A stretch of 64,000 nucleotides of DNA from the NCBI GenBank assembly GCA_902809985.1, contig CADDXC010000001.1, positions 1,612,001-1,676,000 on the forward strand, written 5' to 3'. Positions within the stretch are counted from its first letter, which is position 1. Each line of letters opens with the position of its first letter. Positions 9,465 to 17,529 of this stretch are shown here, piece after piece. Source of the DNA: Clostridiaceae bacterium BL-3 (GTDB lineage: Bacteria; Bacillota; Clostridia; Clostridiales; Clostridiaceae). The notes beneath the pieces are model-generated. The model saw nothing but the letters and a program-made list of their open reading frames with translations, was not told where the DNA came from and did not search any database. Position numbers and translations under genes: made by a program.

Positions 9465-9674
9465 TTATATTTTTCTTTCTTTGTTCAAAGAATTAAATAT
9501 CAAGTCCATTATCACCCTATACAAAATTACACTTACAATTATAATCACAACGAAAAAAATATTTTCGCTCATCGGTAGGGCATTATATAGAATATATTTT
9601 AAAATAATAAAAAGCAATATAATTTCCACCATAAAAACTATCACAAGTAATAATTTCAATTTACTTTTGTCCAC
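9465..9674 (-). CDS. Small two-helix membrane protein next to the nitrogenase-like operon
   Basis: The 69-residue protein has two hydrophobic spans (about 6-29 and 39-61), a basic N-terminus (MDKSKLK) and a basic tail (NSLNKERKI). I do not recognise a family. It lies 118 bases beyond the NifH-like stop on the same strand, with a hairpin between. It may be co-transcribed by read-through or belong to a separate unit. Confidence 0.5.
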   Translation of the reverse strand: MDKSKLKLLLVIVFMVEIILLFIILKYILYNALPMSENIFFVVIIIVSVILYRVIMDLIFNSLNKERKI

Positions 9675-9705
9675 GGTAAAACTCCTTTTTCTACAACTTA
9701 TTATA

Positions 9706-9747
9706 TAGTAATAAAAGTCTAAGTATACTCTCAGACTCTTATTACTA
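9706..9747 (-). terminator. Hairpin after the NifH-like gene
   Basis: TAGTAATAAAAGTCT and AGACTCTTATTACTA form a 15-base arm pair with one mismatch around a 12-base loop, 45 bases after the NifH-like stop. The trailing T-tract on the minus strand is weak, so it may be a 3' stabilising stem or a leaky terminator. Confidence 0.5.
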
Positions 9748-9791
9748 ATATCCTCATAATTACATTTTCTTCTATATTTACAGACAATAAT

Positions 9792-10610
9792 TTATTCTAC
9801 AACACCATGTTCTAAAAGTATCTTCTCAAGTTTTTCCTGAGACATAGGTTTTGGAATAGAAAAATCATTATTTTCTTCTATCGCTCTGGCAAGTGCTCTG
9901 TACTCTTCAGCCTGATCTGCATTTGAATCAAATTGTATTACAGTTTCCTTGTGAATTTCTGCCTTCTGCACCACATTATCCCTTGGGACAAAATAAATAA
10001 GATGAGTACCCAACTCCTCTGCAAATGCTTCCAGTAATTCTTTTTCATTGGTTACCTTTCTGCTGTTGCAGATAATTCCCCCCAGTCTCACTCCACCTTT
10101 TTTGGCATATTTCCTTATCCCTTTGGATATGTTGTTTGCAGCATAAAGTGCCATCATTTCACCGCTGGCCACAATGTATATTTCTTTGGCCTTTCCCTCA
10201 CGAATAGGCATGGCAAATCCGCCGCATACAACATCTCCAAGTACATCATAAAATACATAATCCAGATCATCCGTATATGCTCCCAACCTTTCAAGCATGT
10301 CTATGGAAGTTATTATTCCCCTCCCAGCACAACCTACTCCTGGTTCAGGTCCTCCTGACTCAACACACCTTATGCCATTAAATCCTTCCTTTAAAATATA
10401 ATTTAGTTCCACATCTTCTCCTTCCTGCCTTAGAGTATCCAGCACTGTTTTTTGTGCAAGTCCCCCTAAAAGAAGCCTGGTAGAATCCGCTTTGGGATCG
10501 CAACCTACCACCATAACCTTTTTGCCAAGTTCGGACAATCCTGCTGTCAAATTCTGTGTTGTAGTGGATTTACCTATTCCGCCCTTGCCGTAAATTGCTA
10601 TTTGTCTCAT
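9792..10610 (-). CDS. NifH-like nitrogenase-family Fe protein (reductase)
   Basis: The 272-residue ATPase closely follows NifH: P-loop GKGGIGKST (about 8-16), [11 protein letters not shown] switch region, and both 4Fe-4S ligands, Cys94 in GVGCAGRGI and Cys129 in [17 protein letters not shown]. Arg97, the residue ADP-ribosylated in true NifH, is kept. The homodimer would pass electrons, coupled to ATP hydrolysis, to the NifD/K-like complex encoded upstream. Sequence alone cannot separate it from NifH. The operon context (SAM-I leader, sulfonate-class importer, no nifB/E/N) argues for a MarH-like role in organosulfur reduction. Confidence 0.9.
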
Positions 10611-10655
10611 GTAAATATTCCTCCTAATATTACTGTATTTGTCAGATTCAATTTT

Positions 10656-11087
10656 TTAATCATCAAAGCGATGTACATTTGCCAGAATCTTTGCTGCCCT
10701 AATTGGACAATCATCCCTATTTGCTGAACTTCCAAAGGTATCCTTTTCCACAAGATATTCGAGTATCCTTCCTCTTTTAGCATAGGATTTAAGCGCCTTT
10801 TCTATAGAACCACTCAAACTTATAGCTACAATATTCCTGTCATGAAGTACACTTACTGCTCCAGAGCCAATGTCGCTGGCCAATATTAATTTTACGTCAC
10901 CCAGCAATTTTATAATCTTGTTTAACTTATCCTCTCCAGTTTTGGAATCATTGAGATGAACTTCCCGCGTCTCTATGAATTCATATTCTTCATTCTGATG
11001 AATTTCATAAACAAAGAATTTATCCGCCTTCCCAAAATGTTCATTTATAAAAATACCATCGCTACTAGCTACAGCAACTTTCGCCAT
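10656..11087 (-). CDS. NifX/NifB-C-type iron-sulfur cofactor-binding protein
   Basis: The 143-residue protein has the dinitrogenase iron-molybdenum cofactor domain: MAKVAVASSDG, EHFGKADKFFVYEI and a beta-alpha-beta core with LILASDIGSGAV. Family members (NifX, NafY, NifB C-terminus) bind or carry cofactor precursors. It sits between the NifK- and NifH-like genes (18- and 45-base gaps), so it probably handles the cofactor of the NifD/K-like enzyme. The N-terminal radical-SAM part of NifB is absent, and no nifB is in the window, so the [Fe-S-C] core must be made by a gene elsewhere. Confidence 0.8.
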   Translation of the reverse strand: MAKVAVASSDGIFINEHFGKADKFFVYEIHQNEEYEFIETREVHLNDSKTGEDKLNKIIKLLGDVKLILASDIGSGAVSVLHDRNIVAISLSGSIEKALKSYAKRGRILEYLVEKDTFGSSANRDDCPIRAAKILANVHRFDD

Positions 11088-11105
11088 ATATTAACCTCCT
11101 CCACA

Positions 11106-16913: not shown

Positions 16914-17195
16914 AATAATTATTCCTCCTATTTTATAATATAATTTTTATACTTAACTTAATCTCTTGTACTCTTAAAATTTAAAGCATGTACTTTCATT
17001 ATTTCGATTTTTAAAGTCTTTTAAATATTTGATACCTATGGTATAATAATGTCGTGTTTAAAAAGCTCTGACATAATATATGTTATCTTTCTTAATTATT
17101 TGGTCATTTTTAATGAAAGGTTAACACATTATGTTGGGGTTTTTCTATCTGTAGATTATGCTAAAATAATTAAATAGCACAAGAGATTAAATGAA

Positions 17196-17230
17196 AGAGA
17201 CTGATCAAATTTTTGATTTGATCAGTCTCT
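17196..17230. repeat. Hairpin repeat, copy A
   Basis: Perfect inverted repeat: AGAGACTGATCAAAT, 5-base loop, ATTTGATCAGTCTCT. It lies in the transcribed leader between the SAM-I terminator and the NifD-like gene. Neither strand shows a T-tract, so it does not look like a terminator. A diverged copy in the same orientation lies at 19696-19731, and the similarity extends about 15 bases to the right of the stem in both copies. Confidence 0.7.
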
Positions 17231-17273
17231 CGTTTATCTAGTCGACTAATTTGGCTAAACTAAATTTTATAAA

Positions 17274-17310
17274 ATAAAAAAACTTCCCTCTGAGAAAATG
17301 CAGGAAGTTT
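17274..17310 (-). terminator. Terminator of the nitrogenase-operon SAM-I riboswitch
   Basis: On the minus strand AAACTTCC pairs with GGAAGTTT around a 15-base loop and ends in T7. It directly follows the SAM-I aptamer, about 360 bases before the NifD-like start, and would stop transcription when SAM is high. Confidence 0.88.
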
Positions 17311-17324
17311 CAATCCTTGTATTC

Positions 17325-17432
17325 TCTCATCTTTCAGGTTCTCCACCTGCTGGAATTGGCACCACACATTCTAATGAAAAATGTCGGTTGCCGGACATCA
17401 TAGGGCCAGTCCCTCTGTCTCTCTAGATAAGA
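17325..17432 (-). promoter_or_regulatory. SAM-I (S-box) riboswitch of the nitrogenase-like operon
   Basis: Read on the minus strand the S-box blocks occur in order: TCTTATC (P1), AGAGGGACTGGCCC, GTCCGGCAACC, GGTGCCAATTCCAGC, GGTGGAGAACC and GAAAGATGAGA closing P1. All core blocks fit the SAM-I consensus. It controls the nifD-ssuBCA-nifKXH-like operon. High SAM should switch the operon off, and sulfur or methionine limitation should switch it on. Confidence 0.95.
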
Positions 17433-17500
17433 AATTTTTTAACTATTTTTAAAATTCATTGTCTATGTCTATCACATTTCATATTTATTTATTGATATTT

Positions 17501-17529
17501 AATATACACTGCTACAATTATCCTGTCAA
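17501..17529 (-). promoter_or_regulatory. Sigma-A promoter of the nitrogenase-like operon
   Basis: On the minus strand a perfect TTGACA (plus 17524-17529), a 17-base spacer and TATATT (plus 17501-17506) place the start near 17494, about 60 bases before the riboswitch. No NifA/sigma-54 type -24/-12 element is seen, unlike the promoters of many true nif operons. Confidence 0.85.

Follow-up and report, generated by a model that had tools for sequence, protein, structure and literature searches.

The window analysed here, 64,000 nucleotides of Clostridiaceae bacterium BL-3 (contig positions 1612001–1676000; host genome 3.86 Mb), carries nitrogenase-like genes and the genes of an ABC importer behind an S-adenosylmethionine (SAM) riboswitch. 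The question raised by this locus is what an enzyme of the nitrogenase superfamily, so regulated and so equipped, is for. The best explanation, to which we give a probability of roughly two in three, is that this operon (hereafter operon A) serves sulfur scavenging and is turned on at low SAM (methionine), and that its enzyme works like methylthio-alkane reductase (Mar) while forming a sister lineage of its own whose cofactor pocket differs. As a class of function, the scavenging of organic sulfur under SAM control is likely; the label Mar was not earned.

Operon A is a single minus-strand operon (window 17529–9792) of tightly spaced genes, in which a promoter, a SAM-I riboswitch and a terminator are followed by D-SsuB-SsuC-SsuA-K-NifX-NifH. 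Its genes are:

15384..16913, minus strand: NifD-like catalytic subunit (D), 509 amino acids; Pfam Oxidored_nitro 220.6 bits
14521..15372, minus strand: importer ATPase, NitT/TauT class (SsuB/TauB-like); profile models
13699..14502, minus strand: importer permease (SsuC/TauC-like); profile models
12599..13654, minus strand: importer substrate-binding protein (NMT1/SsuA class); profile models
11106..12476, minus strand: NifK-like subunit (K), 456 amino acids, TTG start; Pfam Oxidored_nitro 237.3 bits
10656..11087, minus strand: NifX-like protein of cofactor-carrier type, 143 amino acids; PF02579 (Nitro_FeMo-Co) 67.2 bits, nifX model 50.5 bits, under its cut-off of 112
9792..10610, minus strand: Fe protein NifH; TIGR01287 458.5 bits, cut-off 394.35

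These Pfam and NCBIfam matches confirmed the first-pass annotation, which had placed NifD-, NifK-, NifX- and NifH-like genes and an SsuABC-like importer in one operon.

Lineage and cofactor pocket of D and K

The best solved match of both catalytic subunits was the Mar of R. rubrum, with 213 bits for D (114 for the next non-Mar chain) and 281 bits for K (82 for the next non-Mar chain), and the NCBIfam nifD model gave D 150.8 bits against a cut-off of 653.55. The earlier proposal of a nitrogenase-like enzyme other than nitrogenase, with SAM-type control and a dedicated importer, was supported. A chlorophyll or cofactor F430 enzyme was rejected, the BchB, BchN and CfbD models scoring far under their cut-offs and the chains of dark-operative protochlorophyllide oxidoreductase giving at most 35.6 bits with D, against 213 for Mar.

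In a quick tree of 119 D rows, the window D and its relatives (A-type D, eight rows) formed one clade (SH-like approximate likelihood ratio test, SH-aLRT, 100) outside the 84-row clade holding MarD (100). A careful tree of 44 chosen rows gave 100/100 for both the A-type (seven rows) and the Mar-like (20 rows) clades and joined them as sisters at 95/91. Forcing the A-type rows together with the four true-Mar rows cost 158 log units and was rejected (approximately unbiased test, p-AU 3.8e-69). In the D trees, which were built without IsrD and without a named NfaD, the window D fell outside the NifD clade. The eight A-type rows also formed one clade (99), apart from MarK, in a tree of 111 K rows; since that tree has one NifK outgroup row and a weak backbone, it supports the clade and its distinctness from MarK without fixing where the clade branches.

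Residues were compared in an alignment of 112 D-like open reading frames (ORFs) with MarD, NifD and NifE. The Mar residues and their roles, including Arg428-His429 in loop I as a proposed hallmark, are those given in the available part of PMC12552129. D has Cys59, Cys84 and Cys153 at P-cluster positions and Cys269 at the cofactor position (equivalent to MarD Cys270), and K has Cys27, Cys52 and Cys117 at P-cluster positions, invariant in the five sequences aligned, so that neither the cofactor cysteine nor any of the six P-cluster cysteines is lost. The D positions are Cys in 112/112 ORFs. At the positions of MarD Arg428-His429, Arg-His was found in 83/112, His without Arg in 14, neither in 7, and Cys-Ala (three) or Cys-Pro (five) in the remaining 8, which are the window D (Cys423-Ala424) and its relatives, that is, 8/8 of the A-type clade. 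In these rows Ser, Pro or Val stands in place of Trp195, Ile, Val or Leu in place of His194 and, by the same alignment, Glu or Asp in place of His375.

Five carefully aligned A-type D share the loop YKR[E/D]...R-x-HS, and the two deepest members also carry YKRE...R-x-HS. The invariant His439 of the window D lies in this later loop, near nitrogenase His442: in a profile alignment it stood one residue off the NifD His, which we take by its motif to be His442, whereas MAFFT set it against MarD His429. The second cofactor ligand may accordingly be either His439 in a nitrogenase-like loop or the new Cys423, or it may be absent.

With the grouping with true MarD rejected, D outside the Mar-like clade, Arg428-His429, His194, Trp195 and (by alignment) His375 replaced and a canonical Mar already encoded in operon B of the same genome (see below), it is decidedly unlikely that operon A specifies a true methylthio-alkane reductase freeing methanethiol from, for example, methylthioethanol or dimethyl sulfide, even though MarDK is the best solved match, SAM control would suit it and the P-cluster cysteines and the Cys270 equivalent are kept. 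The first-pass assignment to Mar-type enzymes therefore did not survive, and the enzyme of operon A was rejected as the canonical Mar of the genome. Since D is not Mar by clade or hallmark and canonical Mar sits in operon B, any methanethiol, ethylene, ethane or methane as a product is a guess. Active-site residues unlike those of both nitrogenase and Mar suggest that the enzyme probably frees sulfur from another compound, and the separate lineage with its different cofactor pocket likewise makes a different substrate probable.

Leader and importer

The leader of operon A contains the following elements:

17501..17529, minus strand: sigma-70/A-type promoter TTGACA-17-TATATT, 11/12 consensus positions
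17324..17433, minus strand: SAM-I (S-box) riboswitch aptamer, Rfam RF00162 full length, 88 bits, E 1.6e-19 (gathering score 44.4 bits)
~17275..17309, minus strand: intrinsic terminator of the expression platform (AACTTCC...GGGAAGTTTTTTT) with U-run, from constrained folds
17196..17230, minus strand: second hairpin (stem of 16 bp), also conserved downstream of the riboswitch units in two relatives

The first-pass annotation of a SAM-I riboswitch plus terminator behind a sigma-A promoter was upheld by the aptamer score, the folds and the promoter match, and a chance riboswitch match was rejected because the match is full-length, reaches 88 bits and is conserved in two relatives. When P1 was forced closed the leader formed the terminator hairpin with its U-run (−46.7 kcal/mol), and when the 5′ strand of P1 was blocked it formed an antiterminator (−47.7 kcal/mol). 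A terminator with P1 closed and an antiterminator without P1 is the usual off-switch logic of S-box leaders. Two Clostridium relatives have two tandem riboswitch units, each with a promoter-like sequence seen by eye. The second hairpin, which is preceded by a conserved motif (GACTRGATARACTRGAGAC-like) and shows one compensatory change, looks like another terminator; its region gave no Rfam match above gathering score, and at a relaxed threshold weak, chance-like matches only.

By family, the three importer proteins (ATPase, permease, binding protein) are of the nitrate/sulfonate/taurine class. Of the "sulfonate-class importer" in the first-pass annotation, the class thus stood (NitT/TauT family) and the sulfonate specificity did not, as all the listed sulfonate- and taurine-specific NCBIfam models scored under cut-off on the window importer (SsuA_fam 85.8 against 163.5, SsuC 122.5 against 347, aliphatic sulfonate ATPase 153.3 against 395). 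"Sulfonate-class" is therefore a family label, not a substrate. The solved matches of the binding protein were 4nmy (37.6 bits), presumably a thiamin-bound form, 3uif (SsuA, 35.1 bits) and 3ix1 (pyrimidine-binding, 22.3 bits).

The window binding protein is 49% identical to that of one A-type locus (G992) and 28% to those of a Synergistaceae metagenome-assembled genome (MAG). In a binding-protein tree, in which one row is a fragment, Clostridium stood apart from Synergistaceae and Syntrophomonadaceae. Because these proteins do not group, one unchanged ancient importer-enzyme cassette was rejected. Importers of the NitT/TauT class seem instead to have joined the A-type enzyme at least twice, which would argue for a charged substrate.

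Related loci, Fe protein and sibling operons

A-type D is rare. It was present in 3 of the 13 genomes of the genus, in 4 of 206 family genomes (47% identity for the fourth) and, at E 1e-115, in 2 of 391 genomes sampled from the class, namely the window genome and G007, which is Clostridium luticellarii DSM 29923, the closest named relative in this work. Among 398 genomes sampled across the phylum, it was found in the window genome and in two deep members; a second class gave 2/82, one already found, and the phylum of the Synergistaceae MAG 1/185 (985 bits), nine other genomes matching there at no more than 326 bits. The genome_contigs scan returned four loci, those of C. luticellarii, a Syntrophomonadaceae MAG, the Synergistaceae MAG and a Bacillota MAG (G185), and a search of viral contigs found no relative. 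Mar-like D at E ≤1e-60 occurred in 41 of the 206 genomes of the family.

Nine A-type loci were compared: the eight in the trees plus G992, where the contig ends within D. Contig ends also truncate the Syntrophomonadaceae and G295 loci. The importer adjoins D/K in six (window, G007, G003, Syntrophomonadaceae, Synergistaceae, G992), NifH is found at five and a NifX-like gene at four. Two loci have CysK, both over the curated cut-off, and two a DUF2292 protein, in each case in relatives from other lineages; one of the DUF2292 proteins gave a low score (25.8 bits, cut-off 85) to OscA, a protein of sulfur starvation. A SAM riboswitch heads three of the nine, in Clostridium only, and in the G295 stretch one precedes a MetY-type gene. 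In two relatives the binding protein and K flank D; in the window D is first.

These neighbours bear on a sulfonate reductase akin to isethionate reductase (Isr), by which an imported sulfonate would yield sulfite or sulfide for cysteine synthesis. In the available part of PMC11423573, R. capsulatus IsrBHDK with SsuCAB likewise pairs a nitrogenase-like enzyme with a NitT/TauT importer for sulfur assimilation, an SsuCAB-type importer is needed for the pathway, and no SAM riboswitch is mentioned. The importer, CysK and DUF2292 speak for such an enzyme. The same part of that source gives IsrD one P-cluster Cys and no cofactor cysteine (Cys275 equivalent), and the Isr cluster a radical SAM gene, IsrB; the D of operon A keeps Cys59, Cys84, Cys153 and Cys269, no radical SAM (nflB-type) gene lies in operon A, and the Clostridium switch is predicted to sense SAM, not cysteine. 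IsrD is absent from the tree. Such a reductase is thus an unlikely identity for the enzyme.

In C. luticellarii a gene for a ThiW S-component (L051:10758-11300; TIGR02359 142 bits, cut-off 84) lies between the binding protein and D, and a decayed ThiW remnant is present in a second species (L052 ~11285-11460). Thiamine or thiazole salvage, or the use of thiazole as a sulfur source, would agree with this and with the weak binding-protein matches to 4nmy and 3ix1, of which the former is about equalled by that to SsuA (3uif). The window operon and the non-Clostridium loci showed no ThiW ORF, the window stretches tested gave no ThiW fragment, and thiamine pyrophosphate riboswitches above gathering score were absent from the window and from five loci; salvage of this kind is very improbable.

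A placement of the proteins inside true NifHDK would have refuted the first-pass annotation. D and K fall outside NifDK, but the Fe protein is nearer true NifH than MarH: the window NifH gave 486 bits to 1cp2, which we take to be NifH of C. pasteurianum, against 282 bits to MarH (9fmg_D). Two further A-type loci have Fe proteins that are more distant and yet pass the nifH equivalog cut-off. Identity of the window NifH is 87% to the operon B protein and 49–51% to the Fe proteins of three loci outside Clostridium, which share 82–86% with one another; judged from these identities, the Fe protein is swapped too.

The profile search of window proteins found no NifB-type gene within operon A. A NifB match was present in 8/8 other A-type host genomes searched, six over the curated cut-off. 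Two MAG hosts (G1028 and G1029), each with a NifB-like match, gave 15 PF00148 matches, and 0 of the 13 ORFs recovered from these scored best as NifD, NifE or NifK, a result that, the MAGs being incomplete, would fit an enzyme needing NifB without a nif system.

An N2-reducing group IV nitrogenase of the Nfa type, or a NifEN-like cofactor scaffold, could be read from the invariant His near nitrogenase His442 and from the Fe protein, nearer NifH than MarH; Nfa is described in the available part of PMC9147875 as the presumed N2-fixing enzyme of Endomicrobium. Since the genome already has nifHDKEN, and SAM control and a sulfur-type importer are ill-suited to nitrogen fixation, we give either role very little credence; the tree holds no named NfaD.

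The genome contains 13 PF00148 matches. Four are nifDKEN near 800 kb, adjoining nifH, and six form three D/K pairs within ~66 kb, each behind a SAM-I riboswitch (operons A, B and C). The last three lie at a separate locus (2028786-2034769) of distant proteins with two NifH-like ones, one of them in a 706-aa frame.

Operon B (1590646 down to 1581792; riboswitch-SsuC-SsuA-SsuB-SsuC-SsuC-D-K-NifH) lies ~31 kb from operon A. In the quick tree its D is within MarD's own branch, and operon B, which carries an importer and a SAM riboswitch of its own, is the predicted canonical Mar of the genome. Operon C (1568665 down to ~1559600), whose D lies in another Mar-like branch, reads riboswitch-MetN-MetI-MetQ-D-K-DmsA-type molybdoenzyme-DmsB-TorD-like, followed by further same-strand genes, with 923.5 bits for the DmsA-type protein (cut-off 777.7), 231.7 for DmsB (214.1) and 77.8 for the TorD-like protein (132). 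This arrangement suggests that sulfoxide reduction may be followed there by C–S cleavage.

Genome-wide, 21 SAM riboswitches were found. Tandem copies at 1590699-1595575 head an amino-acid permease, MetK (called by length and by sequence against our own panel), NifB (465.7 bits, cut-off 343.65) and a protein of the 2-thiouracil-desulfurase family, and one copy precedes sufC-sufB-sufD-sufS (L016:5444-11125). With riboswitches before D/K, NifB plus MetK and SUF, the enzyme genes, the cluster-building genes and SAM synthetase appear to be under one signal. A SUF-like set, seen by eye, adjoins operon C-type genes in four relatives (L053, L060, L068, L101).

In the genus, 42 of 47 D genes stood behind a SAM-I riboswitch and five did not, one of these at a stretch end. 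This count covers the stretches examined in 12 genomes, searched with a model built from six riboswitch copies; operons were delimited leniently, from genes on the same strand with gaps ≤400 bp, ignoring any opposite-strand ORF shorter than 130 aa. The importer sets in these operons include SsuABC-like, MetNIQ-like and Opp-like ones.

Proposed pathway and known systems

From the parts, their order, the riboswitch, the cluster cysteines, the clade and the neighbours, all taken from sequence, we infer each chemical step and the identities of cofactor, substrate and product. At low SAM the aptamer would be empty, the antiterminator would form and operon A would be transcribed. The NitT/TauT-class importer would then take up an anionic organosulfur compound. 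NifB, whose gene stands behind SAM riboswitches in another part of the genome, would provide an [Fe8S9C]-type cluster for which the NifX-like protein may be the carrier, and NifH with ATP would pass electrons via the P-cluster to this cluster in DK. DK would cleave a C–S bond reductively, and the methanethiol, sulfide or sulfite freed would enter methionine or cysteine synthesis.

A bolder form of this proposal is tentative, and we rate it somewhat below an even chance: A-type D/K would be a new enzyme of the nitrogenase superfamily with a third mode of holding the cluster (Cys269 with His439 or Cys423, not the loop-I His429 of Mar), reducing an imported charged organosulfur compound new to nitrogenase-like enzymes. 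In Clostridium it would form one branch of a regulon under SAM riboswitches, in which importers of different kinds are combined with different Mar-like enzymes and with their cluster-building genes.

Several observations weigh against sulfur scavenging by a Mar-like enzyme. The genes might serve as a cofactor scaffold or could reduce a bond other than C–S. The cofactor ligands come from alignment, and the loop region is uncertain, the two aligners disagreeing on His439; the 112 D-like ORFs were collected by similarity to the window D and are an uneven sample. Neutral methylthio-alkanes have no obvious need of such an importer, no sulfonate model passed its cut-off, and no importer was seen at three of the nine A-type loci (G185, G295 and G571; G295 is cut by a contig end). 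In the stretches examined no SAM riboswitch precedes D/K at the six non-Clostridium A-type loci, so that SAM control is a lineage trait. The best NifB-like match in the Synergistaceae MAG (283.7 bits) is under cut-off and contains stop codons. In addition, the genus has 55 matches of at least 184 bits, more than the 47 D genes in the riboswitch count, and since some riboswitch operons are long, the most distal D genes may escape riboswitch control.

Compared with R. rubrum MarHDK (PDB 9FMG; available part of PMC12552129), operon A shares the D/K/H make-up, the P-cluster cysteines, Cys270, the link to sulfur limitation and, presumably, the need for a NifB-type maturase. It differs in its separate clade, in Cys-Ala/Pro for Arg428-His429 and the replaced His194, Trp195 and His375 positions, in its own NitT/TauT importer, SAM-I riboswitch and NifX-like gene, in a NifH nearer nitrogenase and in having no marB-type gene. 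With Mo-nitrogenase NifHDK it has in common the family, the P-cluster positions, the cofactor cysteine and NifH, and it differs in the fully supported separate clade, in a His only roughly in register with His442 and in the SAM and importer context.

Clostridial group IV pairs offer a further parallel, with Mar-like D/K beside sulfur genes and others beside ABC transporters. In the available parts of the sources, MarHDK-like genes lie near type I mlp clusters, methionine salvage being suggested (PMC10418091), and ABC transporters or sulfur genes lie beside group IV nitrogenase-like pairs in Firmicutes/clostridia (PMC3464626). For nitrogenase-like or Mar enzymes together with a riboswitch, only an earlier version of PMC10418091 was matched, and the available part of the latest version has no riboswitch passage. 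No description of the Cys-Ala/Pro loop variant, of the riboswitch-importer-enzyme cassette or of its genus-wide use was found in the literature searched; subscription journals were mostly outside it and an earlier description is possible.

Anaerobic cleavage of C–S bonds can proceed by way of nitrogenase-like reductases, which also offer a path to ethylene, ethane and methane. Here one genus with a cultured strain combines a canonical Mar and a naturally altered cofactor pocket, and as each enzyme has its own importer, the residues behind substrate choice could become traceable. The SAM riboswitches set before such genes across the genus offer an easy handle for finding these enzymes and for inducing them by methionine starvation, and the importer binding proteins are a direct assay route to the substrates.

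A 69-aa ORF reaching window position 9465 is without Pfam match and is preceded by a terminator-like sequence seen by eye, and for these reasons it is probably outside operon A. Downstream (window 2697-9160) lies an Opp/nickel-class ABC importer with a gene for a SAM-dependent methyltransferase; Opp sets also come after Mar-like genes in two relatives, at ~30–44% identity to this set. A MarR regulator and MFS transporter pair (window 17767-19667) adjoins the operon, and the same pair, by eye and in a different orientation, adjoins that of C. luticellarii (L051:16043-17957). Another SAM-I riboswitch (window 2154-2280, plus strand, 82.5 bits) stands ahead of a DUF2325 protein (2362-2667).

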